Assembly (NCBI GenBank): GCA_947500445.1
Contig: CANMSB010000011.1
Span: 1-64,000, forward strand
Direction: 5' to 3'
Length of the DNA: 64,000 nt
Origin: an uncultured Flavobacteriaceae bacterium
GTDB lineage: Bacteria; Bacteroidota; Bacteroidia; Flavobacteriales; Flavobacteriaceae
Part shown: one piece after another, positions 3,957-34,468 of the stretch
Layout: each line of letters starts with the position of its first letter
Numbering within the stretch: position 1 is the first letter of the stretch
The notes under the pieces: model-generated
The model's input: only the letters and a program-made list of their open reading frames with translations
Databases searched by the model: none
What the model was told of the DNA's origin: nothing
Position numbers and translations under genes: made by a program

Positions 3957-4745
3957 TTGAAACAGACGCCTTTCACTACTGTAACCCTTTATTTGAGCGT
4001 ACTAGCGCTATGGTCGCTGTTTCCCGGCCAGTCCGTGGCGCAAGAATCGGACGGGCAAGGTTGGGTGGTAACCAATGCCAAGGACACCCTTTTTGGAACG
4101 ATCAAAAATCGAAAGTCCCCTCCTTTTGGGAAGGTCTATACCAAAATTAGGTTTAAAGGGAAAAGGGGCAAAAAACGCTTTGGCCCAAAAGATATTATTG
4201 CATACCAGATGGGAAACCGTGTTTATGAGCGTATTTGGCTGTCCAAGGAAAGTACCTTCCTAACGGAGCACTTAAGGAGTGTTGAAGGGGAGGGACAAAA
4301 GCAATTTATAAGGGTCGCGGCAAAGGGAAACCTTATTCATTACATTGACGAAATTGAGGTTCAGGGAGAAGAAGAACCGATGGAAATCGATTACTTTAGA
4401 AAAAAGGGAAGCCCACGGTTGGTAAGGGCGACCCAAGGAATTTTAGGCTTAAAGCGAAAACGCTTGATACCATTTCCGGTGTTAAATTACTCAAATAAAA
4501 ACCAAGGATTTTTTGGGTAGGCGAAAAAGAAAATCCAAGCATAGCAGTAGCTATGGTTCGATTTTATTTTGAAGCATACACGGAAAAGAACAATTTTTAA
4601 TGGGTAATTTAACACCGGAAATGGTATGTTACCCTTCTTTGCGGACTGCGCCCCGTTGATTGCCAAAATAGAGGACAAAACGTTTCGTTATGCCTTTGAG
4701 GTCGTCGATTTTTACAATACCCACTGCGGTATGGATGCACCTTGA
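3957..4745 (+). pseudogene. Exported protein of unknown function, split by a palindromic element
   Basis: The frame opens at a TTG (3957), ten bases after the previous stop, and encodes a signal peptide (LSVLALWSLFPGQSVAQ) and a basic, beta-rich body. It reaches RATQGILGLKRKRL at 4466, then runs into a 161-bp palindromic element, where it ends after 17 foreign codons (stop at 4518). Past the element the same frame resumes at 4629 with LPFFADCAPLIAKI and runs to a stop at 4745 through FEVVDFYNTHCG. From memory, related flavobacterial proteins carry exactly such a tail (ADCPxLxxKI ... EVVEFYNxHC) directly after the KKK/RKR stretch. Removing 4467-4628 (162 bases) joins the two halves in frame. 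The function of the family is unknown to me. Confidence 0.75.
4467..4627 (+). repeat. Palindromic MITE-like element, type I, 161 bp, inside a gene
   Basis: The outer arms begin ATACCATTTCCGGTG and end CACCGGAAATGGTAT, and they match over about 27 bases with one mismatch. The centre is CATAGC-AGTA-GCTATG, a perfect small hairpin. The whole unit can fold into one long stem. It carries no gene. It shares its centre with the elements at 11387, 15903, 17309, 19453, 28118 and 34293. A target duplication is not obvious beyond a single G. Confidence 0.8.
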
Positions 4746-4787
4746 TACCAACTTTGTTCACTACCGACCAATAGCAACATAAAACGA

Positions 4788-4813
4788 ATACCATTTTAAG
4801 TTTGAAATGGCAT
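4788..4813. repeat. Solo short palindrome of the ATACCATTT type
   Basis: ATACCATTTTAAG is followed by TTTGAAATGGCAT, a 26-bp near-palindrome made of the outer arm of the type I elements without their interior. It lies 37 bases before the DUF2237 start codon. It may be a deletion remnant or a founder sequence of the larger elements. Confidence 0.5.
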
Positions 4814-4849
4814 AAGGGCGTAAAAACGTCCGCACGAGAAAAAAAGAGT

Positions 4850-5221
4850 ATGGAAACAGTTATTAAAAATGTATTGGGTACTTCCCTGGAGGCCTGTTGC
4901 TACCGACCGTTGACCGGGTTTTATCGCGATGGGTTCTGTAAAACGGGCATCGAAGACCAAGGCACACACGTGGTGTGCGCGATCATGACGGATGCTTTTT
5001 TGGAATTTTCGAAAAGCAGGGGCAACGACCTGATTACACCCAAACCCTATTGGCAATTTCCGGGGTTAAAGGCCGGCGACCAATGGTGCCTTTGCATACG
5101 GCGATGGCTGGAGGCCGAAAAAGCGGGGAAAGCACCCAACCTCATCCTCGAGGCCACACACGAAAAGGCATTGGAACACGCATCGCTGGCGTTGCTACAA
5201 CGGTATGTTTATGAAAAATAA
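4850..5221 (+). CDS. DUF2237 family protein
   Basis: A 123-residue cytosolic protein matching the DUF2237 / COG3651 family: NVLGTSLEACCYRPLTGFYRDGFC, then GTHVVCAIMTDAFLEFSKSRGNDL, PxPxWxFPGLKxGDxWCLC and a C-terminal ATHExALEHxSL. The conserved cysteines are all present. The biochemical role is unknown. The ATG at 4850 is chosen because the family begins at METVIKNVLG; the longer TTG frame from 4802 only adds codons from the palindromic repeat upstream. Confidence 0.85.
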   Translation: METVIKNVLGTSLEACCYRPLTGFYRDGFCKTGIEDQGTHVVCAIMTDAFLEFSKSRGNDLITPKPYWQFPGLKAGDQWCLCIRRWLEAEKAGKAPNLILEATHEKALEHASLALLQRYVYEK

Positions 5222-5236
5222 GCACTGGCGCCGAGC

Positions 5237-5824
5237 TTATCTTAATTGTAGCAATTTGGCAACATACTTACCGATAACATCGAACTCCAAGTTGACCACC
5301 GTACCTACTTTATAGGTATTGAAGCGGGTATTCTCATAGGTATACGGGATGATCGCGACACTGAAGGTGTTGCTTCCGGAACCGACTACGGTAAGGCTCG
5401 TACCATCAATGGTGATCGATCCTTTTTCTATGGTAGGGTTGCCCAATTTGTCATCATAAACAAAGGAAAAGATCCAGCTGCCATCCTTCATGTCGATCGC
5501 CGTGCAGGTTCCGGTCTGATCTACGTGGCCCTGAACGATATGCCCGTCCAATCGGGAACCGAGAATCATGGCACGTTCCAAATTTACCGTATCGCCCTTC
5601 CTCAGTTCGGAAAGGTTGGTCTTGTTCAAGGTTTCCTCAATGGCCGTTACGGTGTAGGCACCTTCCTGTAAGGAGACCACTGTTAAGCAGACCCCATTGT
5701 GCGAAACGCTCTGATCGATCTGCAATTCACCGGCAAGCGCGGAAGCTACGGTAATATGCAAATTTCCCCCGTCCTTTTTCAAATCGGCGACCGTACCCAA
5801 AGTTTCGATTATACCTGTAAACAT
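5237..5824 (-). CDS. ribE: Riboflavin synthase, alpha subunit
   Basis: The enzyme turns two molecules of 6,7-dimethyl-8-ribityllumazine into riboflavin and a pyrimidine, the last step of vitamin B2 synthesis. The 195 residues form the usual two lumazine-binding repeats (about 1-96 and 97-195). The first opens with the signature MFTGIIETLG and carries SVSHNGVCLTV; the second has GHIVQGHVDQTGT and SITIDGTSLTV. Length is normal. It is divergent from pdxA, with only 72 bases between the two starts, so no room exists for an FMN riboswitch. Sometimes called ribC. Confidence 0.96.
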   Translation of the reverse strand: MFTGIIETLGTVADLKKDGGNLHITVASALAGELQIDQSVSHNGVCLTVVSLQEGAYTVTAIEETLNKTNLSELRKGDTVNLERAMILGSRLDGHIVQGHVDQTGTCTAIDMKDGSWIFSFVYDDKLGNPTIEKGSITIDGTSLTVVGSGSNTFSVAIIPYTYENTRFNTYKVGTVVNLEFDVIGKYVAKLLQLR

Positions 5825-5841
5825 CTTCTGAAGAATTTAAG

Positions 5842-5849
5842 TAATTTTG
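5842..5849 (+). promoter_or_regulatory. -7 box (TAATTTTG) for pdxA
   Basis: TAATTTTG matches TAnnTTTG exactly and is followed 47 bases later by the pdxA ATG. The -33 side falls inside the start of ribE and shows no good TTG. It overlaps the divergent ribE leader. Confidence 0.4.
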
Positions 5850-5879
5850 CGGGCTAAGGCCGCCGTTATAGCAATGGGG

Positions 5880-5887
5880 CAAAGGTA
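5880..5887 (-). promoter_or_regulatory. -7 box (TACCTTTG) for ribE
   Basis: On the minus strand this reads TACCTTTG, a perfect TAnnTTTG, 55 bases before the ribE ATG. The pdxA and ribE boxes lie on opposite strands within about 45 bases, so the two promoters are interlocked and could compete. Confidence 0.45.
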
Positions 5888-5896
5888 CAGATAATC

Positions 5897-6943
5897 ATGG
5901 ATGAAAACGGGAAAATAAAGCTAGGCATATCGATCGGCGACTTAAACGGTATCGGTTGTGAGGTAATTTTAAAAACCTTTGAAGATGCCCGGATGATGGA
6001 CTTTTGTACCCCGATCATCTTTGCCTCCAACAAAACCGTTTCCTTTCATAAGAATGCCCTAAAGCTCGACATTAATTACCATGGCATTGCCGACGCGGCA
6101 AAGGCATTGGACGGAAAATTGAACGTGGTAAACGTTTGGAAAGAGGTGCCGAAAATACAGTTCGGGGAAGCAACGGAGGAAGCGGGCGCTTTTGCCCTAC
6201 AATCCCTTGAAGCGGCGGTCGCTGCTTTAAAGACCGACGCAATTGACGGGTTGGTGACTGCACCGATCAACAAAAACAACATACAGTCCGAAACGTTTAC
6301 ATTTCCCGGACATACCGATTATTTGGCACAGGAGCTTGAAGGGGAAAGCCTTATGTTCATGATAACCGAGGCCCTTAAAGTAGGGTTGTTGACCGACCAT
6401 GTGGCCATTAAGGATGCCCCTGCCGCAATCAATCCTATCCTGATACGCACGAAGGTAAGGACCATTGAAAAATCCCTGACCATGGATTTTGGAATACGCC
6501 GCCCCAAAATTGCTTTATTGGGCATTAACCCGCACAGTGGCGATAACGGCGTGATCGGAAAAGAGGACGACACGGTCTTAAAACCGGTCATCCGAGAAAT
6601 GTCGGATGCCGGCCACCTGGTTTTTGGCCCCTATTCGGCGGACAGCTTTTTTGGTTCGGACATGTACCGGAAATTTGATGCGATACTCGCGGCCTACCAC
6701 GATCAGGGGCTCATTCCATTTAAGACCCTGTCCTTCGGCAAAGGGGTCAACTATACCGCCGGACTCTCCAAAGTACGTACTTCGCCCGACCATGGCACCG
6801 CCTACGAAATTGCCGGAAAAGGTACGGCCGATCACAGTTCGTTCAAAGAGGCGGTTTTTGCAGCCGTTCAAATCGTTAAAAACAGACAGGAATATGCCGT
6901 ACTCACCGAAAATCCGCTACAAAAACAAAAGGTAAGACGATAA
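5897..6943 (+). CDS. pdxA: 4-hydroxythreonine-4-phosphate dehydrogenase
   Basis: An NAD-dependent oxidation and decarboxylation of 4-phosphohydroxy-L-threonine in pyridoxal phosphate synthesis. The 348 residues show the family signature throughout: SIGDLNGIGCEV near the N-terminus, TAPINKNNI, FPGHTDYLA (metal-binding histidine), GINPHSGDNG, YHDQGLIPFK (second histidine) and SPDHGTAYEIAGKGTAD (third). Length is usual. The gene is first in a run with yceD and rpmF, an order common in Flavobacteriaceae, but a separate promoter follows it. Confidence 0.96.
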   Translation: MDENGKIKLGISIGDLNGIGCEVILKTFEDARMMDFCTPIIFASNKTVSFHKNALKLDINYHGIADAAKALDGKLNVVNVWKEVPKIQFGEATEEAGAFALQSLEAAVAALKTDAIDGLVTAPINKNNIQSETFTFPGHTDYLAQELEGESLMFMITEALKVGLLTDHVAIKDAPAAINPILIRTKVRTIEKSLTMDFGIRRPKIALLGINPHSGDNGVIGKEDDTVLKPVIREMSDAGHLVFGPYSADSFFGSDMYRKFDAILAAYHDQGLIPFKTLSFGKGVNYTAGLSKVRTSPDHGTAYEIAGKGTADHSSFKEAVFAAVQIVKNRQEYAVLTENPLQKQKVRR

Positions 6944-7044
6944 GCGTACGCCGGCGGACGACCAAAATACCGAAGTTGCTATTTAAAAACCGTTGACCAT
7001 TCCCTTTGTGCGCTTATGTTATGGGGCTATTTTCCCCAAACAGT

Positions 7045-7075
7045 GTTGGCAATTACCAAAATAATAGTATCTTTG
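7045..7075 (+). promoter_or_regulatory. Bacteroidetes promoter (TTGG-N19-TATCTTTG) for yceD-rpmF
   Basis: TTGG at 7045-7048 and TATCTTTG at 7068-7075 are separated by 19 bases, the classical -33/-7 layout of this phylum. Transcription would begin near 7083, about 40 bases before the yceD start chosen here. This supports starting yceD at 7124 rather than at the upstream ATG at 7016. Confidence 0.65.
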
Positions 7076-7123
7076 CACCCCCATCAGAGGATGGGAGCGA
7101 GTTCAACCAGTGTATATTTAAGG

Positions 7124-7654
7124 ATGGAACATAAGGAATACCGTATTCCTTTTTCAGGATTGAAGCAAGGAAAACACACGTTTGAATTTCAGATAGACAA
7201 TACGTTCTTTGAGTCTTTTGAATATAAAGAGTTTAATGCGGCCGACGTTAAGGTAAACGTTACGATGAACAAGTCGAGCACTATGCTCGAATTGACCTTC
7301 GATGCCGGTGGCACGGTAAATGTCAATTGCGACCTTACCAGCGAGCCCTTCGATCTTCCCATTTCCGCGACCATGGATCTGGTAGTAAAGTTCGGGGAGG
7401 AGTTTAATGATGACAATGAAGAAATACTCATCATTCCGCATGGAGAACATCAGGTAAACTTAGCGCAATACATTTACGAAATGCTCGTATTGGCGGTACC
7501 GTTGAAAAGGGTACATCCCGGAGTAGCCGATGGCACCCTTAAATCGGAGGCCTTGGATACGCTCAATGCATTACGGCCGGCAGCATCAAAAGACGACACA
7601 GTAGAAAACGATCCCAGATGGGACGCATTAAAAAAGTTAATAACGGATAAATAA
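7124..7654 (+). CDS. yceD: DUF177 / YceD family protein
   Basis: A 176-residue acidic protein of the YceD family, which in other bacteria is linked to 23S rRNA accumulation and always lies beside rpmF. Key matches are the N-terminal IPFSGLKQGKHTFEFQIDNTFFE and the central VNCDLTSEPFDLPI with the FGEEF strand. The C-terminus is acidic with DPRWDALKKL, which is typical. The longer frame from 7016 includes the promoter and is rejected. rpmF follows after only seven bases, so the two are co-transcribed. Confidence 0.88.
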   Translation: MEHKEYRIPFSGLKQGKHTFEFQIDNTFFESFEYKEFNAADVKVNVTMNKSSTMLELTFDAGGTVNVNCDLTSEPFDLPISATMDLVVKFGEEFNDDNEEILIIPHGEHQVNLAQYIYEMLVLAVPLKRVHPGVADGTLKSEALDTLNALRPAASKDDTVENDPRWDALKKLITDK

Positions 7655-7661
7655 GTGATCA

Positions 7662-7859
7662 ATGGCACATCCTAAGAGAAAAATATCGAAAACTAGAAGG
7701 GATAAAAGAAGAACCCATTACAAGGCCGTAGCCCCTACTTTGGCTACCGACCCTACCACAGGTGAAATGCATTTGTTCCACCGTGCCCACTGGCATGAAG
7801 GCAAATTGTACTACAAAGGCCAAATATTGATCGACAAAACTGAGGAAGTAGAGGCATAA
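7662..7859 (+). CDS. rpmF: Large ribosomal subunit protein bL32
   Basis: A 65-residue basic ribosomal protein with the standard bL32 opening [20 protein letters not shown]. The zinc-binding cysteines found in some bL32 proteins are absent (CxxC- form), which is usual in this phylum. It is co-transcribed with yceD and followed by a terminator. Confidence 0.97.
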
Positions 7860-7880
7860 ACGTTTGCTATATTACCAAAG

Positions 7881-7917
7881 AACTCCTTTCCTTTTTAAAA
7901 GGGCAGGAGTTTTTTTA
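7881..7917 (+). terminator. Rho-independent terminator after rpmF
   Basis: AACTCCT pairs with AGGAGTT, with a further CTTTCC/GGGC-like internal stem, and is followed by a run of T. It lies 22 bases after the rpmF stop. Confidence 0.75.
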
Positions 7918-7922
7918 TGGCA

Positions 7923-7948
7923 ATACCATTTTAACGATAAAATGGTAT
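7923..7948. repeat. Solo 26-bp palindrome ATACCATTTT...AAAATGGTAT
   Basis: Ten-base arms are perfectly complementary around a six-base loop. The arms equal the outer ends of the type I elements elsewhere in the window. It follows the rpmF terminator directly. Confidence 0.6.
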
Positions 7949-8152
7949 ACTATCCCGTTACTAAAAACGACCCGCGTCCCATCCAACAAAACCGCCAGCA
8001 CCCTATTGGGAGTATCCGAACATAATTTTCAGGGGAACCTTGCAAAATGCGGTGACGCACAATCTTTTCAAAAAACCCATTTTTAAACAAAAAGTGCTGA
8101 AAAATCACTAATTTTCCCGAGTTTTGTGCCAAATTTGAGTCGAACCGCGCTT

Positions 8153-8281
8153 GTGTTTCCATTTGAAATAAAAGCGTTGCCTTTTACGCTATTGGTCTTT
8201 TTAACGATACAGCCGTTATTTGGTTGTCATCAAAGCAAGATCGAAAAGCAAAAACAGGAAGGTAACGATGCAAAAGGATAA
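8153..8281 (+). CDS. Possible tiny lipoprotein (42 residues), doubtful
   Basis: A GTG-started frame (or TTG at 8177) encodes a hydrophobic stretch LPFTLLVFLTIQPLFGC followed by a charged tail HQSKIEKQKQEGNDAKG. This resembles a lipoprotein signal with a lipobox ending in cysteine. It ends 33 bases before fabH. It is too short for statistics and has no family match that I know. The hydrophobic run plus FGC is the only support. Confidence 0.25.
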   Translation: MFPFEIKALPFTLLVFLTIQPLFGCHQSKIEKQKQEGNDAKG

Positions 8282-8314
8282 CGCAGAACAAGTTCGTTAA
8301 ACCAATTCCTAAGT

Positions 8315-9319
8315 ATGGGTAAAATAACAGCAGCCATAACCGCTGTGGGGGGCTATGTACCGAAATACGTGTTGACCAACAAAATGTTGGAAGAAATGGT
8401 GGAAACCAACGATGAATGGATCACCACCCGAACGGGAATTCGCGAAAGAAGGATCTTAAAGCCCGAAGAAGGGGAAGGCAGCTCCTACCTTGCCATTAAA
8501 GCAGTGGAAAACCTGCTCGAAAAAAAACAGCTGGACCCTTCGGAAATCGATATGGTAATCGTGGCAACGGCAACACCGGACACCCTAGTGGCTTCTACCG
8601 CAGCCTTTGTTGCCTCAAAAATAGGGGCCACCAATGCGTTTGCCTACGACCTATTGGCCGCCTGTTCCAGTTTTCTTTATGGGATGTCTACCGCGGCCGC
8701 ACACATTGCATCGGGGCATTATAAAAAAGTATTGCTCATCGGGGCCGACAAAATGTCGTCCATTATCGATTATACCGATCGCACCACCTGTATCATTTTT
8801 GGCGATGGCGCCGGGGCCGCCCTTTTCGAACCCAACGATGAAGGGCTCGGACTTCAGGACCAATACTTAAGATCTGATGGTGTCGGAAGAACCTTCCTGA
8901 GTATGGATGCCGGGGGATCGCTTATGCCCGCTTCCGAGGAAACCGTAAAAAACGGAAAACACTATATTTATCAAGATGGTAGAACGGTATTCAAATTTGC
9001 CGTAAGCAATATGGCCGACGCCGCCGAACGTATTATGGAACGGAACGATCTTACCCATGATGACGTAAACTGGTTGGTACCCCACCAAGCGAACAAACGC
9101 ATTATCGATGCTACTGCGAAAAGGGTAAATCTGGACCATTCCAAGGTGATGATGAATATTCAGCACTATGGGAATACAACCTCGGCAACACTGCCCTTGT
9201 TGTTGGCAGATTATGAGAAAAAATTAAAAAAAGGCGACAATTTGGTATTCGCCGCTTTTGGCGGAGGCTTTACCTGGGGCGCCATTTATTTAAGGTGGGC
9301 CTACAACCAACAGGCGTAA
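8315..9319 (+). CDS. fabH: 3-oxoacyl-[acyl-carrier-protein] synthase III
   Basis: Condenses an acyl-CoA starter with malonyl-ACP to begin fatty acid synthesis. The 334-residue protein has the complete FabH triad: Cys117 in AACSSFLYG, His257 in VPHQANKRI and Asn287 in HYGNTTSAT. The N-terminal TNDEWITTRTGIRERR is also typical. Bacteroidetes make branched chains, so the starter may be branched, but the sequence alone does not decide that. It lies upstream of accB and accC in the same direction. Confidence 0.96.
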   Translation: MGKITAAITAVGGYVPKYVLTNKMLEEMVETNDEWITTRTGIRERRILKPEEGEGSSYLAIKAVENLLEKKQLDPSEIDMVIVATATPDTLVASTAAFVASKIGATNAFAYDLLAACSSFLYGMSTAAAHIASGHYKKVLLIGADKMSSIIDYTDRTTCIIFGDGAGAALFEPNDEGLGLQDQYLRSDGVGRTFLSMDAGGSLMPASEETVKNGKHYIYQDGRTVFKFAVSNMADAAERIMERNDLTHDDVNWLVPHQANKRIIDATAKRVNLDHSKVMMNIQHYGNTTSATLPLLLADYEKKLKKGDNLVFAAFGGGFTWGAIYLRWAYNQQA

Positions 9320-9460
9320 AATAAAGGAACAAAAAAAGAGGGTCATCTTGTTTTTGACATGGTATCCCCTTTAAAAAGGGTCATAGCCGAAAATAAAACA
9401 AGGCTCATCTAATAGAAGCAAACAAAACGCGCAATTACAGATCATTAAAAATCAAATTCC

Positions 9461-9946
9461 ATGGATCTAAAAGAAATTCAAAACCTTATTAAGTTCGTAG
9501 CGAAGTCCGGGGCTTCAGAGGTAAAACTTGAAACGGACAACGTAAAAATTACCATTAGGACCGGTCCAATCGGCGGCGGATCCGAAACCACCTACGTACA
9601 ACAGATCCCCGTTGCCGCTGCACAGGCCGTAGCTCCTGCACCGGCAGAACAAGAAGCCGCTCCTGCCAAAACACCGGCCGCACCGGAAGCGGACGACGAT
9701 TCAAAATACATTACCATCAAATCCCCTATCATCGGTACGTTCTACCGAAAGCCTTCTCCCGACAAACCCGTTTTTGTGGAAGTTGGTAAACAAATCGAGA
9801 AAGGCGATGTACTCTGCGTGATCGAAGCGATGAAACTCTTTAACGATATCGAATCGGAAGTATCCGGTAAAATCGTGAAAATATTGGTAGATGATTCGTC
9901 TCCGGTAGAATTTGACCAACCGTTGTTCTTGGTAGACCCTTCTTAA
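9461..9946 (+). CDS. accB: Biotin carboxyl carrier protein of acetyl-CoA carboxylase
   Basis: Carries biotin between the carboxylase and carboxyltransferase parts of acetyl-CoA carboxylase. The 161 residues consist of an N-terminal segment (MDLKEIQNLIKFVAKSGASEVKLE), an alanine/proline-rich linker at about 50-80, and a biotinyl domain with the EAMKLFN motif; the biotinylated lysine is residue 125. The FYRKPSPDKPVFVEVGK 'thumb' of AccB is present. It is followed by accC after 90 bases. Confidence 0.96.
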   Translation: MDLKEIQNLIKFVAKSGASEVKLETDNVKITIRTGPIGGGSETTYVQQIPVAAAQAVAPAPAEQEAAPAKTPAAPEADDDSKYITIKSPIIGTFYRKPSPDKPVFVEVGKQIEKGDVLCVIEAMKLFNDIESEVSGKIVKILVDDSSPVEFDQPLFLVDPS

Positions 9947-10036
9947 CTAAAATATACCGTAACGTTTGGCGCGCATGACCGATACAACATCGTTTTGCAA
10001 TGCTCCCGAACACATGGAATTTGATACGATACGCTT

Positions 10037-11386
10037 ATGTTCAAAAAAATATTGATAGCAAATAGAGGTGAGATCGCGCTGCGCGTCATCAGAACCTGTA
10101 AGGAAATGGGAATCAAGACCGTAGCGGTATACTCCAAGGCCGATGAAGAAAGTCTTCATGTACGCTTTGCCGACGAAGCGGTCTGTATCGGGCCTGCCCC
10201 CAGTACCGAATCGTATTTGAAGATACCGAATATTATCGCAGCGGCGGAAATTACCAACGCCGATGCCATACACCCTGGGTATGGCTTCCTTTCCGAAAAT
10301 TCAAAGTTCTCCAAGATCTGTGCCGAGCACGACATTAAGTTTATCGGTGCTTCGGGCGACCAAATCGATAAAATGGGGGACAAAGCAACGGCAAAAGCGA
10401 CCATGAAAGCAGCAGGCGTACCTTGTGTACCTGGTTCCGAAGGGTTGCTAAAAGACCTTGCACATGCCAAAAAAGAAGCAAAAAAAATGGGGTATCCCGT
10501 GATGATCAAAGCGACCGCCGGTGGCGGTGGTAAAGGGATGCGTGCCGTTTGGGGCGAAGAAGAAATGGAAGGCCATTTCGAGAGCGCCGTACAAGAGGCC
10601 ACCGCATCGTTCGGAAATGGGGGCATGTACATGGAAAAGCTGATCGAAGAACCGCGACATATCGAAATTCAGGTCGTCGGTGACCAATATGGAAAAGCAT
10701 GCCACTTGTCGGAACGTGATTGCTCGGTACAACGGCGCCACCAAAAGCTGACGGAAGAGACCCCTTCCCCGTTCATGACCGACAAGCTGCGGGAAGATAT
10801 GGGAAAAGCAGCGGTCAAAGCTGCAGAATATATCAAATATGAAGGTGCCGGTACGGTAGAATTTTTAGTGGACAAACACCGCAACTTCTACTTTATGGAA
10901 ATGAATACCCGTATTCAAGTAGAGCATCCCATTACGGAACAAGTTATCGATTACGATCTGATCAGGGAACAGATATTAGTGGCTGGAGGTGTCCCCATTT
11001 CCGGAAAAAACTACATTCCCAAACTGCATTCCATCGAGTGCCGGATCAATGCGGAAGACCCCTATAACAATTTCAGGCCTTCCCCGGGAAGGATCACTAC
11101 ACTCCATATTCCAGGCGGACATGGAATACGAATGGATACACATGTATACAGCGGCTACATTATACCGCCCAATTACGATTCTATGATTGCAAAATTGATC
11201 ACCACCGCACAAACACGCGAGGAAGCCATCAATAAAATGAAGCGCGCCTTGGACGAGTTCGTTATCGAAGGCGTAAAGACCACAATACCGTTTCACCGAC
11301 AGTTAATGGACCACCCCGATTATTTGGCCGGTAACTATACCACCAAATTTATGGAGGATTTTGAGATGGAAACGGAAAGCGAATAA
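10037..11386 (+). CDS. accC: Biotin carboxylase subunit of acetyl-CoA carboxylase
   Basis: ATP-dependent carboxylation of the biotin on AccB. The 449-residue ATP-grasp protein starts with [19 protein letters not shown]. It has the glycine-rich ATP loop [45 protein letters not shown] and the C-terminal [10 protein letters not shown]-like segment ([11 protein letters not shown]). Length is standard. The stop codon is followed at once by a palindromic element and then the operon terminator. Confidence 0.97.
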
Positions 11387-11548
11387 TGAAGTGGTTTAAA
11401 CTTTTCCCATTCGTTAAAAAATTGCCCTTTTTTACCCAATTTTCGCCTTTTTTTCCTTCCGTAGCCCTGCTATGCAACTCAAAAAAACCTTCAAATGGGC
11501 AAAAAATTGCTAATTTTCACTTAAATGCGAAAAGTTTAAACCACTTCA
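11387..11548. repeat. Palindromic MITE-like element, type II, 162 bp
   Basis: It begins on the first base after the accC stop. The outer arms TGAAGTGGTTTAAACTTTT and their exact complement form a perfect 19-bp terminal pair. The centre is CCGTAGC-CCT-GCTATGC. The interior matches, in reverse orientation, the element at 17309-17470, but the outermost bases differ (GAAGTGG here, GAACTCG there) while staying self-complementary in each copy. Confidence 0.85.
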
Positions 11549-11553
11549 ATACT

Positions 11554-11583
11554 AAAAAGCCCTGACTGTTCAGGGCTTTTTTT
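11554..11583 (+). terminator. Terminator of the fabH-accB-accC run
   Basis: AAAAAGCCCTGA, loop CTGT, TCAGGGCTTTTT, followed by more T. It is symmetrical, so it could act on both strands. The 162-bp palindrome sits between accC and this terminator. Confidence 0.85.
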
Positions 11584-11743
11584 ATGCACGCCCCCAATAA
11601 ACAGGGAAACCGTTTCACGGTTTTCCAGCGTACCGCTCACCCCATTATCCACTACTTTTACCAAGGAATTGTAATCGAATCGTTTTTTGGTACAATTTTA
11701 GTTCCCAAAAAGAGTTAAAGAATAATACCTCCAATACAAGAAT

Positions 11744-15902: not shown

Positions 15903-16117
15903 ATACCATTTTAACCCGCTTTATGCATTAGAAAATCTATTACAGCTTCCAGCTACTTCAAAATATGGTGCTGCGCTACATTTTTAAATGTAACCGTAGC
16001 CCCGAAGTTTCGGGGCTATACTTAGATCCCCGGTCAAGCCGGGGACAGGCTTTTTGCCTCGAACAACTAAAAAATAATTCAATTTCTATACGCCCGATTT
16101 CAAAGTTAAAATGGTAT
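15903..16117. repeat. Palindromic MITE-like element, mosaic type I/III, 215 bp
   Basis: The outer ends are ATACCATTTTAAC and GTTAAAATGGTAT. The left half follows type III (CCCGCTTTATGCATTAG ... ACATTTTTAAATGTAACCGTAG). The tip is not the usual three-base loop but a series of GC-rich hairpins (15997-16060). The right half is degenerate. It ends 18 bases before the start of the FAD oxidoreductase, so an open frame runs from inside the element into that gene. Confidence 0.75.
15997..16060. repeat. Three GC-rich hairpins placed at the tip of the palindrome
   Basis: TAGCCCCGAA-GT-TTCGGGGCTA (15997-16018), TCCCCGG-TCAAG-CCGGGGA (16027-16045) and AGGC-TTTTT-GCCT (about 16046-16059) follow each other. 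The first extends exactly the CCGTAG/CTAT stem of the host element. The units look like REP-type hairpins. The first has a relative (CCCCGA-CGC-TTCGGGG) in the tRNA remnant at 41605-41620. Confidence 0.7.
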
Positions 16118-17308: not shown

Positions 17309-17470
17309 TGAACTCGTTTAAACTTTTTGCGTTTAAGCGAAAATTAGTCATTTTTTGGCCATTGGAAGGCTTTTTTAAGTTGCATAGCAGGGCTACGGAA
17401 GGAAAAAAAGGCAAAGAACGGACGAAAAAGGGCAATTTTTTAGCAAATGGAAAAAGTTTAAACGAGTTCG
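17309..17470. repeat. Palindromic MITE-like element, type II, 162 bp
   Basis: The arms TGAACTCGTTTAAACTTTT and AAAAGTTTAAACGAGTTCg pair at 18 of 19 bases. The centre is GCATAGC-AGG-GCTACGG. Its reverse complement matches the element at 11387-11548 through most of its length, and it has the same 162-bp size. It ends 19 bases before the start codon of the Gre-like gene, so that gene's mRNA leader would contain or directly abut it. Confidence 0.85.
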
Positions 17471-19452: not shown

Positions 19453-19612
19453 ATACCATTTCTACCTCAAAGTTACCCATTAAAAATTGCCCTTTTCCGC
19501 TTATACTTCAAAATAAAAAACAACCGTAGCTACTGCTATGCTTGATTTTTCTTTTTCGTCCAAGCAAAAAATGACGGCTTTTATTTGGGTAATTTTAATA
19601 CAAAAATGGTAT
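19453..19612. repeat. Palindromic MITE-like element, type I, 160 bp
   Basis: It begins ATACCATTTCTACC and ends CAAAAATGGTAT. Inner arm TTACCCATTAAAA pairs with TTTATTTGGGTAA. The centre is CCGTAGC-TACT-GCTATGC. It lies three bases beyond the stop codon of the prolyl oligopeptidase gene, so it is the 3' end of that transcript. Confidence 0.8.
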
Positions 19613-26259: not shown

Positions 26260-26275
26260 AACTACAGCACCGACT

Positions 26276-26653: not shown

Positions 26654-26723
26654 GGGTATCGTAGGTCCGTATTAACTCGGGACCATACGGGCGAAAAGGC
26701 TATTTTTGACGAAATTTGAAATT

Positions 26724-27395: not shown

Positions 27396-27452
27396 CGTTT
27401 TCCCATATTGTTCATGGGTAGGGAAACATGGAACCCGGCTTGAGTTCATTTT

Positions 27453-28052: not shown

Positions 28053-28388
28053 ATTGTACCATTTCTACCTTGAAATTACCCATTAAAAATGATATTATCC
28101 GTTTCAACTTTTAGATGTTTAACCCGCTTTATGCATTAGAAAATCTATTACAGCTTCCAGCTACTTCAAAATATAATGCTGCGCTACATTTTTAAATGTA
28201 ACCGTAGCGGTGCTATGCTTACATTCATAAAATGTCATATTTTATCGCAGCTAAAAGCTTCATTACGAAGTTCTAATGCATAATCCGGGTTTAAGCGAAA
28301 ATTAAGAGTTTTTATGGCCAATTGAAATCCTTTTCACGCTCAGCGCCCTTTTTTTAAAAACACTGCAATAGGTTTATCACTGGAACGC
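28053..28388. other. Gene-free spacer between the Crp-like and DinB-like genes
   Basis: Filled almost wholly by the composite palindromic element. No coding frame is supported. Confidence 0.7.
28057..28334. repeat. Composite palindromic element: type III core between type I and type II arms
   Basis: The left part (28057-28090) is a type I arm (TACCATTTCTACCTTG ... TTACCCATTAAAAA). Then comes a complete type III element (28118-28294) with arms TTTAACCCGCTTTATGCATTAG and CTAATGCATAATCCGGGTT and centre CCGTAGC-GGT-GCTATGC. The right part (28287-28334) follows a type II interior (TTTAAGCGAAAATTA ... TTTTTATGGCCAATTG). It looks like elements nested or recombined within one another, 5' of the Crp-type gene. 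Confidence 0.75.
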
Positions 28389-28985
28389 TTAGGTTTGTGC
28401 GGTGGTTTTGGGGAACAAGGCAAGTATTTCGGATATTTGTACCCAATGCCGCTCGGTATGACAAATTAAAAACTCAAAGCATTCCTGCAGATAAAAATTG
28501 ACGATGGGTCCTATCGCGGAAGCGATCTTCACTTTGGAGAGGTCCAGATTTCTACTGTTTGAAATGGTGTTTTTCAAATGGTGATAGTCCGTTTCCCAAG
28601 TATTAAAAATGGTATCCATGTCCGTCTTGGTCAACTTTTGTACGTCCAACAACGGCTCAAACCGCTTTAAGGTCTTCATTTTCCATTTGCGTATATTTCC
28701 TTTGGGCCGTTGTCCGTTGATAACAAAACGCTGCCAGGCGCGGGCCTTAAACCGTTCGTTTTCCGTATCCTTTGCCGGACACTGTGTTACCGCTTGGTCC
28801 AATCTATGCTTATACAGGCTATAGGAGCTATTGAGGTGCGCTACAATTTCTATAATACTCCAGGCCTTTGGACTGCTCGGCACAACCAGTTGCCGTATCG
28901 GTAATGATGGCAACTGCATCAACCGATTATGAAGTGTGTTCAGCCGTTGTATCTGATCTTCCGCACTGATGAATAACGCCGCCAT
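28389..28985 (-). CDS. DinB/YfiT-like four-helix protein
   Basis: 198 residues with the helical pattern of the DinB superfamily: an N-terminal QIQRLNTLHNRL, the first metal-ligand helix AWSIIEIVAHLNSSYSLYKHRL and a C-terminal ICHTERHWVQISEI with HxxxH spacing, which would complete a three-histidine metal site. Members include thiol transferases (bacillithiol, mycothiol), but the substrate is not known here. The gene is divergent from the UDG-like gene. Confidence 0.8.
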   Translation of the reverse strand: MAALFISAEDQIQRLNTLHNRLMQLPSLPIRQLVVPSSPKAWSIIEIVAHLNSSYSLYKHRLDQAVTQCPAKDTENERFKARAWQRFVINGQRPKGNIRKWKMKTLKRFEPLLDVQKLTKTDMDTIFNTWETDYHHLKNTISNSRNLDLSKVKIASAIGPIVNFYLQECFEFLICHTERHWVQISEILALFPKTTAQT

Positions 28986-29106
28986 AAGAATGTTTTAAAA
29001 GGTTATGATACAAAATTCGTAGCTTTCGTTGTCCTAACTATTGATGTGTATCAATAAATGGGCGGTGTTCCTATGTAACCGTAATCGCTAAACCAACGGA
29101 GTTATC

Positions 29107-29694
29107 ATGAAAACCCTCCTTGCAAATATCCGGGACTGTACCGTGTGTTCCGCACACCTTCCATTGGGCCCAAGGCCCATCGTTGCGGCACACCCCGATG
29201 CCAAGATCATTATCATCGGTCAGGCTCCGGGTACCAAAGTCCATGAAACGGGAATTCCCTGGGACGACCCCAGTGGACGGCAACTTCGAAAATGGCTCGG
29301 GGTTTCCGATGAAACGTTTTATGATGAACGTAAAATCGCGCTCGTCCCTATGGGATTTTGTTATCCGGGAAAAGGCAAGGGTGGCGATCTTCCGCCAAGA
29401 ACGGAATGCGCCCCGCTGTGGCATGATGCCCTATGGGAAAAGATGCCAAACATCGAATTTATAGTGCTTATCGGCACCTATGCCCAAAACTATTACCTGG
29501 GAAAACAAAAGGAAAAAAACCTGACCGAAACCGTCAGGGCCTATCAAAACTATCTGCCGCGATACTTTCCGCTTCCGCATCCATCACCACGCAATCGGTT
29601 TTGGTTGCGAAAAAACCCTTGGTTTGAACAGCAGGTGATACCGGAATTGCAGGAAAAGGTATCCGGAATTTTCACTTTACCTAGTACGAAGTGA
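29107..29694 (+). CDS. Uracil-DNA glycosylase superfamily protein
   Basis: 195 residues of the UDG fold (COG1573-like). Near the N-terminus CTVCSAHLPLGPRPIV is followed by the glycosylase motif A IIIIGQAPGTKVHETGIPWDDPSG. Then come the conserved Asp-Arg region and the motif B side PLPHPSPRNRFWLRKNPWF. Cysteines at CTVCSAH recall one half of the Fe-S set of family 4 enzymes; the other pair is not evident, so this is closer to the cluster-less branch. Role: probable removal of deaminated bases. The gene end runs into a low-complexity repeat field. Confidence 0.8.
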   Translation: MKTLLANIRDCTVCSAHLPLGPRPIVAAHPDAKIIIIGQAPGTKVHETGIPWDDPSGRQLRKWLGVSDETFYDERKIALVPMGFCYPGKGKGGDLPPRTECAPLWHDALWEKMPNIEFIVLIGTYAQNYYLGKQKEKNLTETVRAYQNYLPRYFPLPHPSPRNRFWLRKNPWFEQQVIPELQEKVSGIFTLPSTK

Positions 29695-30401
29695 TCAGTA
29701 TTAAGTAGTTAGTAATGAGGGGGGCGAATTTACATTTGAACTTGACTTTTTGTCCTTGTTCTTTTTTCTTTCAGCGAAGCGGTCTTTTTTTCAATGAACA
29801 ATTAGCAATTAGCAATTAGCAATTAGCAATTAGCAATTAGCAATGAAAAAATAATTGGTGACGCGTAAAAGTAATTGGCCTGAAATTGAGCTTGTGTTTG
29901 AATTTGACATTTGTGTTTGAACTGGAACATGACATTTGCACTTGTCTTTTGTCCTTATTCTTTTTTCCTAGTGAAAAGTAGATAGTATCTAGTATTAAGT
30001 AGTTAGTAATGAAGGGTGTGGATTTAAGTTTGGGCATGAACATGTGTCTCGACAAGCTCGACATGACATCCGTCTTTTCGATTGGCCTAAGGGTCCCTTC
30101 GTCCTTGTTCTTTCAGCGAAGCGGTCCTTTTTTTCTAGTGAAAAGTAAATAGTATCTAGTATTAAGTAATTAGTAATGAGGGGTGCGCATTTGCATTTGA
30201 ACTTAACGTTTGCACTTGTCTTTTATCCTTATTCTTTTTTCTTTCATCTATGAGCCTTAGCGGTCCATTGTACTTTTTAACTAGGTCTCGACTCCGCTCG
30301 ACCGGACAGCACGTATTTATAAGCAAACGGCTCGTTGACCAGCAATCCTTGTATTTGATTTTTGAATTTGAGTTTGAATTTGACCCGCGGTCTATTGTCC
30401 T
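29695..30401. repeat. Repeat-filled, decayed spacer
   Basis: About 700 bases without a supported gene. Imperfect units recur: CTAGTATTAAGTAGTTAGTAATGA-like blocks at about 29695, 29985 and 30152; AGTGAAAAGTA at 29970 and 30137 (167 bases apart); TTTGAACTTGAC or similar at 29734 and 30197; CTTTCAGCGAAGCGGTC at 29769 and 30111; and TTGTCTTTTGTCCTTATTC at 29942 and 30217. Short inverted segments like CTCGACTCCGCTCGAC (30285) are REP-like. The same vocabulary appears at 33723-34290. Confidence 0.7.
29800..29841 (+). repeat. Tandem heptamer (AATTAGC) x 6
   Basis: Six perfect copies of AATTAGC in a row, inside the repeat-filled spacer after the UDG-like gene. The copy number is likely unstable. 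It is not in a coding region. Confidence 0.95.
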
Positions 30402-31004
30402 TTAATACCTGCTTCCATCGTGTTTTCCCTTTTCCCATCCGTGTTTTCCCAGGTATTGGTCGGCGCTTTCCACGGCTCCGTCCTCTATGGAGGTGCCCAT
30501 AGAATCGTTCCATCGGTTGAGGTAGCCGAAGAGGGAAATGACCCCCAACATTTCAACGACCTCGCCCTCGTTCCAATGTTCATAGAGTCGTGTTTTGATT
30601 TCGGCATCTACGGCATTGGGTACTTGGGATGCCTGTAACGAAAAATCCAGTGCGGCCCGCTCGGCTTCGGAAAATGCGGCATGGGTGCGGTACTCCCAAA
30701 TATTGTCCAGTTGCTCTTGCTCGGCCCCATACCGTTCCGCCGCGCGTATGGCGTGTGCTTGGCAATACCGACATCCCGTTGCATTGCTGCTCACCCAGGC
30801 GATCATTCGCTTTAAGGCCGATGTCACCCGACCTTCGTTCGCCATTACCGCTTTGTTCAGGTTGATGAAAGCTTTGGAAATTGCCGGTCGATGCTGCATG
30901 GTCAATATTGAATTCGGACAAAAACCAAGGGTCTCATTAAAGAATTTTGCGAGTTCCGCGGTTTCGGGACTATGGCTTGGGTCAAGCGGCTGTACTAAAG
31001 GCAT
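30402..31004 (-). CDS. Carboxymuconolactone decarboxylase / AhpD-like protein
   Basis: 200 residues, all-helical, with the AhpD-type active site CRYCQAHAIRAA (CxxC, then His) after the ALKRMIAWVSSNATG helix. It is likely a peroxidase-related or disulfide-reducing enzyme; many such proteins are called 'peroxidase-related'. A Bacteroidetes-type C-terminal extension NRWNDSMGTSIED is present. The gene is divergent from an OsmC-family gene, also a thiol-peroxide family, so both may serve oxidative defence. Confidence 0.85.
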   Translation of the reverse strand: MPLVQPLDPSHSPETAELAKFFNETLGFCPNSILTMQHRPAISKAFINLNKAVMANEGRVTSALKRMIAWVSSNATGCRYCQAHAIRAAERYGAEQEQLDNIWEYRTHAAFSEAERAALDFSLQASQVPNAVDAEIKTRLYEHWNEGEVVEMLGVISLFGYLNRWNDSMGTSIEDGAVESADQYLGKHGWEKGKHDGSRY

Positions 31005-31109
31005 ACTTTACAATTTAACGTTAATACTAAGAGATATAAAATCGAAATAGAACCATTTTACAAGGGTCTAAATTATCGTACTTTTATTCCTCACAAGAAA
31101 CAAAAATTT

Positions 31110-31535
31110 ATGGGTACTACAAATCATATCAGCACCAAATGGAAAGGAAAAATGGCCTTTGAGAGCACCAACCCCTCCGGACATGTTTTACGCATGGATG
31201 CCGGCCCGGAAAACGATGGGGAAGGTTCCGGTTTTCGGCCCAAGGCCCTAATGCTTTCCTCGCTCGCCGGTTGTTCCGGTCTGGACGTGGCCTCCTTGAT
31301 CAAGAAAATGAAATTAGAGGTGACCGACTTCCATATCGAAACCATTGCCAACCTTACGGACGAACATCCCAAGTTTTACGATCAAGTGACCATTGAATAC
31401 CATTTTTATGGCGACAATTTAAACGAATCCAAACTGCAAAAGGCTGTTGACCTGTCGGTAGAAAAATATTGCGGGGTCATGGAAATGTTCCGCCAATTTG
31501 CAACGATCGAGGTGAAGTTGGTGCTCCATTCTTAA
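31110..31535 (+). CDS. OsmC-family protein
   Basis: 141 residues, with a Cys in SSLAGCSGLDVASLIKKMKLEV and a second Cys in VEKYCGVMEMFRQFA, the two thiols that reduce organic hydroperoxides in OsmC/Ohr proteins. The central PKALMLSSLAGC is typical. A possible promoter (TACTTTTA, about 31080) precedes it. Family membership is clear; the substrate is not. Confidence 0.88.
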   Translation: MGTTNHISTKWKGKMAFESTNPSGHVLRMDAGPENDGEGSGFRPKALMLSSLAGCSGLDVASLIKKMKLEVTDFHIETIANLTDEHPKFYDQVTIEYHFYGDNLNESKLQKAVDLSVEKYCGVMEMFRQFATIEVKLVLHS

Positions 31536-31574
31536 GTTCAAGTGCAAGAATCAAGTTCAATTTTAATATAGACA

Positions 31575-31924
31575 ATGGTCGGTAAAAAGTTTGATCTGGA
31601 AGATCGCCTAGTAGCGTTCGCAAGTAGTGTTGTTCTGTTCTGTAAAGATTTACCAAGGGATATTACCGGAGAATACTAGGCAGCCAACTTTTAAGGTCTG
31701 GTGGAAGTGCCGCGCTTAATTTTGGCGAAGCACAAGGGACCAATAGTAAAAGAGATTAGATCAGCAAAGCCGGAATCTGTTTGAAAGAATTGAAGGAGTC
31801 ACGCGTAAATCTGAAAATATTAATGAAAGTAGCATATGGAGACGCTAAAAAAATACTTCATCTATTAGATGAAGTAGAACAACTGATAAAAATAATCGCC
31901 ACTATTATAAAAAACAAAAAGTAG
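31575..31924 (+). pseudogene. Remnant of a four-helix-bundle (S23 / IVP) protein gene
   Basis: ATG at 31575 opens VGKKFDLEDRLVAFASSVVLFCKDLPRDITGEY, then meets a stop. In a shifted frame the family continues: QLLRSGGSAALNFGEAQGTNSKRD, an in-frame TAG, then ISKAGICLKELKESRVNLKIL and DEVEQLIKIIATIIKNKK before the true stop. This is the whole length of the S23-type proteins, which lie in 23S rRNA intervening sequences or stand free in flavobacterial spacers. One small deletion and two stops disable it. The family's function is unclear (possibly RNA binding). Confidence 0.85.
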
Positions 31925-31981
31925 GTTTGAACCGCTTCAGACGGCAAATGATATTTGTTGCGCTAACCAAAAGATTTACTT

Positions 31982-32024
31982 TTGAACTTGAACTTGAACT
32001 TGAACTTGCTTCTTGAACTTGAAC
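31982..32024 (+). repeat. Hexamer run TTGAAC (4 + 2 copies) before recJ
   Basis: Four perfect TTGAAC copies, a seven-base break (TTGCTTC), then two more copies, ending ten bases before the recJ ATG. It replaces the usual ribosome-binding region, and slippage would change the leader length. Confidence 0.9.
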
Positions 32025-32033
32025 TTCTATCCC

Positions 32034-33722
32034 ATGCGCTGGACCTTAAAACCAAAACCGGAACAACACGACATCGATCGGCTGACAGCGGCATTGGGGG
32101 TATCGCCTTTGGTCGCACAATTATTGTTGCAGCGGGGCATCGCTACTTTTGAGGCGGCCAAACGCTTTTTTCGTCCGCAACTGTCCGAACTGCACGATCC
32201 CTTTTTAATGCAGGACATGTCGCTGGCCGTAACCCGAATCAACACTGCCATTGCCAAAGGGGAAAACATTCTGGTATATGGGGACTATGATGTGGACGGC
32301 ACCACTTCCGTTGCCTTGGTCGCTTCGTATCTGCAATCGTATTATCCAAACGTAGCCACCTATATTCCCGATCGCTATGCGGAGGGGTATGGGGTATCGT
32401 TCAAGGGCATCGACTTTGCCGACGATAACGGATTTTCCCTGATCATTGCGTTGGATTGCGGCGTAAAAGCGATCGACAAGGTCGCCTATGCCAAAGAAAA
32501 AGATATCGATTTTATCATCTGCGACCACCACCGCCCGGGAGAAAAACTCCCCGACGCCATTGCCGTACTGGACCCCAAACGATCCGACTGCGACTACCCG
32601 TACGACGAGCTTTGCGGCTGTGGTGTGGGTTTTAAACTGATCCAGGCCCTTGGTTCAGAACGAAATCAGACCATTACCGATTTGATGCCTTACCTTGACC
32701 TGGTGGCTACTGCGATAGGTGCCGACATTGTTCCGATTACCGGGGAGAACCGCATTTTGGCCTATTATGGTTTGCAAGTGATCAATAACGCCCCAAGAAT
32801 AGGGTTCAAGGCGATTATCGACCAGGTAAATAAAGAAACGCTGACCATTACCGATGTTGTTTTCATCATCGCCCCACGTATCAATGCCGCGGGACGCATG
32901 GAGCATGGGCAACATGCCGTAAACCTGCTCACGGAAACGGATTATGACCAAGCGGCCGCTTTTGCCAAAAATATTGAGCAGTTTAACAACGACAGAAGAA
33001 ATCTTGACAAGGAAATTACCGAGGAGGCCTTATCCCAAATACTGGATGACAATGAGGAGGAACGTTTTACCTCGGTGGTATACAAACCCCATTGGCATAA
33101 AGGGGTTATCGGTATTGTAGCTTCACGACTGACGGAAACCTACTACCGGCCGACCCTGGTATTCACAAAAAGTGGGGAGAAACTGGCGGCTTCGGCCCGT
33201 TCGGTCTCCGGTTTTGATGTGTACAATGCCCTAATGGGCTGTTCGGAACATATTGAACAGTTCGGAGGCCACAAATATGCCGCAGGCCTTACCCTTTTGG
33301 AATCGCAATATGAGGGGTTCAAGGCCCGGTTTGAAAAAGTGGTTTCCGAAACCATCGATCCATCGCTGTTGACCCCGGAAATCCAGATCGATGCCCTGAT
33401 CGACCTAAAGGATATCTCACCAAAACTCATGCGTATCCTAAAACAGTTCGCACCCTTTGGCCCGGGCAACAAAACGCCCGTTTTTATGGCGGAAAACCTT
33501 GTGGACACCGGCTATGCAAAAGGGGTGGGCGAAGACCAAAAACATTTGAAAGTATCGGTAAAACAAGGCGCATCAAAGCCAATCGGGGGTATCGGTTTTT
33601 ACCTCGGTAACAAACTGGACACCGTTTCCAATAAAAAGCGTTTCGATGCCTGTTTCTCTCTGGACGAGAACGAATGGCAAGGAAAACTGAGCCTACAATT
33701 GAAGTTGAAGGACATCAAATGA
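32034..33722 (+). CDS. recJ: Single-stranded-DNA-specific exonuclease RecJ
   Basis: A 5'-3' exonuclease on single-stranded DNA used in recombination and mismatch repair. The 562-residue protein has the DHH-family metal motifs GDYDVDGTTSVAL and CDHHRPGEKLP with ALDCGVKA between them. PRINAAGRMEHGQ, FGGHKYAAGLTL and the OB-fold part are also typical. The ATG at 32034 is used; a TTG at 32013 would add codons from the hexamer repeat. Confidence 0.95.
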   Translation: MRWTLKPKPEQHDIDRLTAALGVSPLVAQLLLQRGIATFEAAKRFFRPQLSELHDPFLMQDMSLAVTRINTAIAKGENILVYGDYDVDGTTSVALVASYLQSYYPNVATYIPDRYAEGYGVSFKGIDFADDNGFSLIIALDCGVKAIDKVAYAKEKDIDFIICDHHRPGEKLPDAIAVLDPKRSDCDYPYDELCGCGVGFKLIQALGSERNQTITDLMPYLDLVATAIGADIVPITGENRILAYYGLQVINNAPRIGFKAIIDQVNKETLTITDVVFIIAPRINAAGRMEHGQHAVNLLTETDYDQAAAFAKNIEQFNNDRRNLDKEITEEALSQILDDNEEERFTSVVYKPHWHKGVIGIVASRLTETYYRPTLVFTKSGEKLAASARSVSGFDVYNALMGCSEHIEQFGGHKYAAGLTLLESQYEGFKARFEKVVSETIDPSLLTPEIQIDALIDLKDISPKLMRILKQFAPFGPGNKTPVFMAENLVDTGYAKGVGEDQKHLKVSVKQGASKPIGGIGFYLGNKLDTVSNKKRFDACFSLDENEWQGKLSLQLKLKDIK

Positions 33723-34292
33723 TGGAAAAACCATCACTCCCTGTTTATCCAAATAATACATACTCGCATGTATTTCAACCCTTCGTCCCCACACGGTACA
33801 AGCTCATCGTTTTATTTGACATTTTCAGTCCTTCAGCGCAGCGGTCCTTTCCCCTTCAGCGCAGCCCCGGCAAGCGGTCTTTCCTCCCAATGGCGAAACA
33901 ATAATCATATGGTTTTCACAAGCCTTTTTTAAATCGATAGCTCCAATCCGATTACAGGTTTCTCGTCCTTCCGCGAAGCGGTCCTTCCTCCTTCGGCGCA
34001 ACTCTCGGCAATCGGTCTTTCATCTTAAAAAACAAATGATTACCATCGTGTCCCTCCGTACACAAAAAGTATTTGTTCGTCAAGTTTTACCCCAAGTTTT
34101 CCGTCCTTCAGCGAAGCGGTCCTTCCTCCTTCAGCGCAGCCTTGGCAAGCGGTCCTTCCTCCCTTAGCGCAGCCCCAGGCAAGCGGTCTTTCCTCCCGAA
34201 GACATTCCTCTTATCGGCCGAAGTGTTCGAACCTGACCCGAAATTCCGGTATCACAATCCCATCTCTTTTTCCGTTCGCACCTTTAACCCGG
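33723..34292. other. Repeat-filled spacer after recJ
   Basis: No supported gene. The unit CCTTCAGCGAAGCGGTCCTT and its variants (TTCAGCGCAGC..., GGCAAGCGGTC) occurs at least five times between 33830 and 34200. It is followed directly by a palindromic element. The same words fill the spacer at 29.7-30.2 kb. Confidence 0.7.
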
Positions 34293-34468
34293 TTTAACCC
34301 GCTTTATGCATTAGAAAATCTATTACAGCTTCCAGCTACTTCAAAATATGGCGCTGCGCTACATTTTTAAATGTAACCGTAGCGGTGCTATGCTTACATT
34401 CAAAAATGTCATATTTTATCGCTGCTAAAAACTTCATTACGAAGTTCTAATGCATAATTCGGGTTTAA
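34293..34468. repeat. Palindromic MITE-like element, type III, 176 bp
   Basis: The arms TTTAACCCGCTTTATGCATTAG and CTAATGCATAATTCGGGTTTAA pair with few mismatches. Inner stem ACATTTTTAAATGTAACCGTAGC pairs with GCTATGCTTACATTCAAAAATGT around the loop GGT. This is the cleanest copy of type III. It ends six bases before the -7 box of the MFS gene. Confidence 0.85.

Follow-up and report, generated by a model that had tools for sequence, protein, structure and literature searches.

Miniature elements with the ends of different insertion sequences share a hairpin core that is probably conserved as a one-strand structure

Results

Hairpin elements of the window

The DNA analysed here (the window) is a stretch of 64,000 nucleotides from an uncultured Flavobacteriaceae bacterium, positions 1 to 64,000 of contig CANMSB010000011.1 in assembly GCA_947500445.1. 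A preliminary description, made from its letters alone, had reported a family of hairpin elements with a common tip, and hairpin elements are indeed present at each of the places that it named. It had counted six full copies and a composite at 28057; six intact elements and one chimera were found, but the chimera is the copy at 15903, whereas 28057 marks a fragment beside an intact ACCCG element. Four of the elements (4467-4627, 11388-11547, 17310-17469 and 19453-19612) do have almost the same length (160-161 bp), as it had noticed. In the following list the elements are named as miniature inverted-repeat transposable elements (MITEs) after the insertion sequence (IS) whose ends they carry, and the G strand is the one that reads GCATAGC at the tip.

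4467..4627, plus strand: MITE of the TACCATTT class; G-strand core at 4519-4576 on the plus strand.
11388..11547, minus strand: IS5-type MITE with GAAG ends, 160 bp; flanked left and right by AAT; G-strand core at 11439-11495 on the minus strand.
15903..16117, no strand given: chimera of two arm types, with ACCCG and TACCATTT parts; tip loop with a CCCGAAGTTTCGGG insert.
17310..17469, plus strand: IS5-type MITE with GAAC ends, 160 bp; target duplication gone; G-strand core at 17362-17418 on the plus strand.
19453..19612, minus strand: MITE of the TACCATTT class; G-strand core at 19504-19561 on the minus strand.
28057..28117, no strand given: region that opens with a fragment from the left end of a TACCATTT element (TACCATTTCTACC...), adjoining an intact ACCCG element.
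28123..28289, minus strand: IS1380-type MITE with CCCG ends; TTTAA at 28118-28122 and 28290-28294; G-strand core at 28182-28238 on the minus strand.
34298..34463, minus strand: IS1380-type MITE with CCCG ends; TTTAA at 34293-34297 and 34464-34468; G-strand core at 34357-34413 on the minus strand.

Exact tips lie at 4540 (minus), 11459, 17383 (minus), 19524, 28202 and 34377, and a covariance model that had been trained on related copies of the core recovered the six window cores at an expect value (E) of 2.2e-8 or better, the next match having an E of 3.6. The model missed the 15903 copy because the CCCGAAGTTTCGGG insert opens its tip loop. At 15903-16117 a TACCATTT element has been entered, close to its left end, by an ACCCG element that sits at TTTAA. 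The ACCCG element now lacks its right half and the TACCATTT element its left half, and what remains of the two is joined at the common tip, an arrangement that a deletion between the two tips would explain. When the site of the 17310 element was compared with relatives as a check for an empty site, their flanks (64-72% identity) lay about 220-240 bp closer together in three genomes and further apart in other genomes.

Two side observations were made in the window. Short palindromes of the CCCGA..TCGGG or CCCCGGTCAAGCCGGGG type, seen at 15994-16023 and also at loci L002, L003, L010, L037, L047 and L077, lie in element arms or the tip loop, as if small palindromes insert into hairpins. A tRNA gene (41394-41467) is followed by an inverted repeat with GGCCTTCACAGATGTGA (41475-41672), which is probably unrelated to the elements.

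In the 5.18-Mb genome as a whole, 126 distinct copies of the tip CCRTAGC-N3/4-GCTATG were read and classed. Tips with a 3-nt loop numbered 34, against 0 for a reversed-pattern control, and those with a 4-nt loop 92, against 7. The tip had first been described with a second half GCTAYG; the tip itself was borne out, but this half is GCTATG in all the genome matches listed, even though the search pattern allowed GCTACG. Two TACCATTT subtypes account for 46 and 37 of the 126 copies and one more is mixed between them, while 19 have GAAC/GAAG and 11 ACCCG arms; four were unclassified on the left side and eight on both sides. One of the 126 (L059) seems to match by chance within coding sequence, and the 15903 copy, with its opened tip, falls outside this count. 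Some contigs end within ACCCG elements; these contig ends look like assembly breaks.

Ends and target duplications

Judged by their sequences, the hairpin elements are MITEs, that is non-autonomous miniature derivatives of several insertion sequences, since they have IS5- and IS1380-family ends and target duplications, and their ends account for their mobility. They are mostly 155-183 bp long (at most 222 bp), have terminal inverted repeats and carry no transposase gene. A 3-bp duplication flanks 30 of 37 GAAC/GAAG elements, in 25 of these 30 as AAT, ATT or ACT (form ANT), while 2000 trials with shuffled pairings gave a mean of 8.9 and a maximum of 17. The corresponding duplication of the ACCCG elements, TNA or equivalently TTNAA outside CCCG, was seen in 14 of 15 (shuffled mean 6.3, maximum 12), and that of the TACC elements in 39 of 67, with 38 of the form TNA (shuffled mean 22.6, maximum 33). 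Reading the duplication of the TACCATTT class as TA did no better than the shuffles and was discarded; TNA beats them. At one locus (L030) a GAAC element is nested in a TACCATTT element with ATT on either side, and a related TACCATTT copy (L042) lacks the nested insertion.

The ends differ between the classes because their parents differ. A search for a transposase gene between the same ends, proposed in the preliminary description, succeeded for two classes, outside this genome. GAAC/GAAG ends match complete IS5-family elements in relatives: L306 measures 927 bp, lies between two copies of AAT and encodes a 290-aa transposase in an open frame (116.3 bits, cut-off 110); L307 is flanked by ATT, but its transposase has internal stops; and L310 and L312 retain both ends, with internal stops and imperfect duplications. 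The parent that matches the ACCCG..ATGCATTAG ends belongs to the IS1380 family: at L322, in genome G444, ends of the ACCCG type surround an IS1380-family gene (234.5 bits, cut-off 180) without a clear duplication. For the TACCATTT class a parent was looked for and not found. This genome yielded no pair of GAAC/GAAG or ACCCG ends 1-2 kb apart and only one decayed IS5-family copy, whose gene ends in the GAAC repeat (83.6 bits, cut-off 110) and has a relative in 7 of 120 genomes sampled from the family. Nor did a recurrent gene accompany the tips: among open reading frames within 2 kb of the tips at 184 loci (without L031-L035), no cluster covered more than 7 loci, and the clusters shown were not transposases. 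The MITEs would thus, to judge from their ends, depend now or formerly on transposases of the IS5/IS1380 type acting in trans.

The tip was not seen in the IS5-family parent elements within 1 substitution or in the IS1380-family parent element within 2. It had been suggested that a transposase might read the hairpin tip as the way of moving, but this is not supported, in view of the ordinary terminal repeats, the 3-bp or TTNAA duplications, the nested ATT insertion and the presence of the same ends, without the tip, on IS5/IS1380-family elements; the duplications point to movement by the ends and not by the tip. The contrast drawn with usual MITEs, conservation of the tip instead of the ends, stands in so far as the tip is constant across the classes, but within each class the ends are conserved as in any MITE.

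Two further kinds of end were noted. A shortened IS5-like element of 455 bp (L311, 1432-1886) has CTCA at one end and GTGA at the other; none of the listed MITEs of this end type shows such a combination. Four loci of genome G202 (L349, L357, L363 and L369) carry GAGCCTGTTTAAATTT, another type of end, around the same core, the tip of which is changed, and the two of these copies that were fully read are flanked by TAA/TAA and TTA/TTA.

Structure of the core

Seventy-eight representatives with less than 72% identity to one another were laid out from the tip outwards, and a single fixed pairing register emerged. The 15 non-Bacteroidota loci, four Bacteroidota loci without hairpin context by eye (L078, L083, L086 and L123) and L059 were kept apart from the pairing and strand analyses and provided the chance-tip control for the mismatch and folding comparisons. 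No hairpin score entered into the choice of the 78; a separate set of 59 representatives was so chosen (155 of 245 tips passed), and arm pairing in that set comes partly from the selection. At outward positions 1, 2, 6-9 and 11, standard pairs occur in 62-72 of the 78, as against 33-36 by shuffling, with three or four Watson-Crick types at each, while positions 3-5 pair little above the shuffled level. The helices are flipped from A/U to U/A between two groups of 32 and 29 representatives, the other 17 being mixed.

An alignment of 67 of the representatives (11 with inserted palindromes, truncation or odd flanks were set aside) gave 84.0% paired cells compared with 61.5% after shuffling, 249 double-change cells compared with 112, and a score of 0.503 compared with 0.141, the best slide reaching 0.290. 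Its tip columns, like those of the covariance model (model R1), are invariant by construction, because the representatives were found by the exact tip. Changes within the tip stem were met in relatives, and they are compensated: four G202 copies of one family have A-U in place of C-G, L355 has A-U in place of G-C, and L338 (26.9 bits, E 0.0023) has G-C in place of U-A. The core thus shows covariation that supports a structure, as measured without tree correction.

Mismatches are one-sided. On the CCRTAGC strand A.C outnumbers G.T by 367 to 154, whereas the chance tips have 51 and 65. In RNA folding predictions the complement, GCATAGC-N-GCTAYGG, was more stable by a mean of 10.3 kcal/mol and better in 74 of 84 representatives; for 19 chance tips it was better in 10 and worse in 8. 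The preference for the complement holds in each class (IS1380 11/12, IS5 26/30, TACCA 13/14, other 54/57), and since mismatch bias and folding both point to the complement, the CCRTAGC strand was ruled out as the functional one. Positions 13 and 15-18 of the G strand are rich in G.A, A.A and G.G. RNA and single-stranded DNA are not told apart, because DNA folding parameters agree in the choice of strand, but the G.U and G.A pairs make us favour RNA as the form of the conserved one-strand structure.

For most classes the relationship extends beyond the tip. Profiles trained without a given class recognised, at a shuffle p of 0.05 or less, 13 of 18 IS5, 8 of 10 TACCA and 37 of 44 other cores (this and the per-class strand test were run without L219, L057 and L065), so that, for these classes, homology of the core outside the tip is clear at the level of sequence. 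The strand preference was still present in 7 of the 9 IS1380 cores of that set; only 2 of these were recognised, and a common origin of their core therefore rests on the fixed central tip bases and the strand preference.

Searched with Rfam covariance models at the gathering score, the window returned one tRNA only; nine loci searched at E<=1 returned, besides a tRNA, eukaryotic models with low scores that did not reach the gathering threshold, and no relevant Rfam family emerged.

Distribution of the tip and the core

A scan of genome contigs found at least 119 stretches with the tip. Among the matches listed, 104 are Bacteroidota by title and 15 are not (the collection's own Bacteroidota share was not measured), and the former include Flavobacteriaceae, Saprospiraceae, Cyclobacteriaceae and others. 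In the 80 of the 119 listed stretches that were compared, the arms around the same tip differ widely, and the same tip occurs within MITEs of at least two unrelated IS families. In a sample of 296 genomes of the phylum, 28 have an exact tip, most of them a single match, and single matches to the control pattern are also common. Model R1, with 19 candidates scored per genome and its counts thus lower bounds, matched at least 11 of these genomes at E<=0.01, among them G202 despite its lack of an exact tip. It matched none of the 15 non-Bacteroidota genomes with a chance tip at E<=1. The tip was also seen in 33 viral contigs, two of which match the model below an E of 0.001.

Three arrangements were noted in passing. 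On a Cyclobacteriaceae contig (L074) tips at 1306, 1946 and 2586 form an apparent tandem array with a spacing of 640 bases. In the single-contig genome G103 (contig C1), one strand has 13 of the 16 exact tips. Another long hairpin repeat of Cyclobacteriaceae (L125, 6899-7057; L146, 901-1059 and 6542-6700) has the tip GGGATAGC-AGC-GCTATCCC; TAGC-N3-GCTA is common to both tips.

Discussion

We find it fairly probable that these elements are MITEs of several insertion sequences with one common internal hairpin module that works as one strand, the tip and loops of which are bound by a trans-acting factor to the benefit of the element. MITEs of different IS parents would share the module, and transposases of the parental types would act in trans on their ends. 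The interior would be kept as a structure of the strand GCATAGC-N3/4-GCTAYGG, with a sequence-specific tip, helices of 2 bp and 6-7 bp that are mostly A/U and change sides by compensation, and purine-rich internal loops. The G strand would work as RNA or, less likely, as single-stranded DNA. Binding of the putative factor to tip and loops might favour the element through stability, host tolerance or help in spreading, with the consequence that MITEs with new ends would keep or acquire the same core. The tip may also have a role merely in aiding transposition. The suggestion in the preliminary description of an RNA or DNA structure under selection is supported by the fixed-register covariation, the strand-specific folding and the compensated tip-stem changes, and conservation of a one-strand structure, with its sequence-specific tip and purine-rich internal loops, is strongly indicated.

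Several results weigh against this explanation. The rows of the alignment are related, so that the shuffle counts overstate their independence, and pairs with a change on both sides (9) are as frequent in the shuffles. DNA folding parameters favour the same strand as RNA parameters, in 80 of 84 representatives. Only 2 of 9 cores of the IS1380 class were recognised outside the tip. The distribution is patchy, with four or more exact tips in only five of the 296 genomes (G000 118, G162 47, G103 16, G226 7 and G198 4). A scan for near-matches to the Bacteroidota -7 box gave no convincing promoter upstream of the G-strand core, the near-matches being mildly enriched there (28 versus 9 in one bin), and no protein partner of the hairpin was found. 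Finally, at 60 loci, a part of the 126 tips, the orientation to tandem genes was unbiased (17 same, 18 opposite; genes on both sides in 55 of 58 elements, divergent in 15 and convergent in 5), and a role in cis in mRNA was rejected on this ground.

The elements could instead be plain MITEs with a functionless core, in which one ancestral hairpin had its ends exchanged by recombination at the tip, the tip persisting because the elements spread recently or because it is a hot spot of recombination. The chimera at 15903, joined at the tip, is what such exchange would produce, and a patchy distribution with high copy numbers within genomes would fit as well. It would not lead one to expect helices flipped from A/U to U/A around an unchanged tip and loops, nor the compensated tip changes and one-sided mismatches, and we regard it as unlikely. 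More doubtful still is the idea that the MITEs carry the tip as a double-stranded palindromic site to which a conserved DNA-binding protein attaches, much as IHF sites are found in some other MITEs. CCRTAGC-N3/4-GCTATGC is near-palindromic and fixed A/T tracts lie beside it, but one-sided mismatches, compensation in the arms and paired tip changes would be left unexplained. Least likely, and in our opinion improbable, is that the hairpin acts in mobility as single-stranded DNA that is recognised by an enzyme of the Y1/RAYT kind or by another that reads hairpins: a one-strand structure whose tip is conserved, the same strand bias under DNA parameters and five Y1 transposase places in the genome would suit it, but the elements have target duplications and IS5/IS1380 ends, and near the Y1 genes there are only scattered near matches, with no enclosing tips or pairs of these ends, so that mobilisation of the REP/REPIN-RAYT kind was rejected.

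A bolder proposal can be attached to the shared hairpin module, tentatively and as something that could hold but that we do not count on: a structured-RNA module transferable within Bacteroidota may be the cargo of MITEs that have switched transposases again and again, a putative conserved protein reading the GCAUAGC-loop-GCUAYGG tip and the purine loops, so that the module would be a parasite of RNA machinery hitch-hiking on many DNA transposases. It is customary to regard MITEs as passive remnants of insertion sequences and to define them by their ends, whereas here the constant part is the middle, which shows signs of structural selection on one strand, and the ends differ from one IS family to another. 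If this is true, the success of some MITEs would have an explanation that can be tested, and a hairpin-binding factor in Bacteroidota could be sought with the core as bait. The covariance model, for its part, permits systematic annotation of these intergenic repeats.

MITEs as such are known, and a core common to several IS-derived classes would be a variation on them. We did not recognise this core in the literature searched on MITEs, hairpins, Bacteroidetes/Flavobacteriaceae and IS1380, a search that took in neither subscription papers nor ISfinder. The attC sites of integrons are folded as a single strand whose extrahelical bases are read by an enzyme, an integrase, and have conserved boxes at the ends around a variable interior. 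The core would resemble them in being a folded single strand with extrahelical bases, and differs, as judged by eye and not by a program search for attC core boxes, in that its tip is conserved and the ends are variable. BOX elements are modular repeats of intergenic DNA that are structured and non-autonomous and are suspected of an RNA function, a description that, modularity apart and without sequence comparison, also suits the present elements; BOX elements are not known to have ends from several parents. The pneumococcal BOX elements are mentioned in PMC10969869. The REP/REPIN sequences associated with RAYT transposases are intergenic palindromes with G.T pairs noted in their stems (PMC3733652), and both features recur here; the present elements differ in their terminal inverted repeats of the DDE type with target duplications and in their length of 150-200 bp, and they enclose no Y1 gene. 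Closest in kind is MITECca01 of Cardinium, which, according to its description, derives from an IS982 element, one parent explaining the whole MITE (PMC9769881). It and the present elements alike are short, non-coding and intergenic, with parental terminal repeats, a high copy number and a host among the Bacteroidota; unlike MITECca01, the present elements combine one core with the ends of at least two IS families, and this core appears to be conserved as a one-strand structure.

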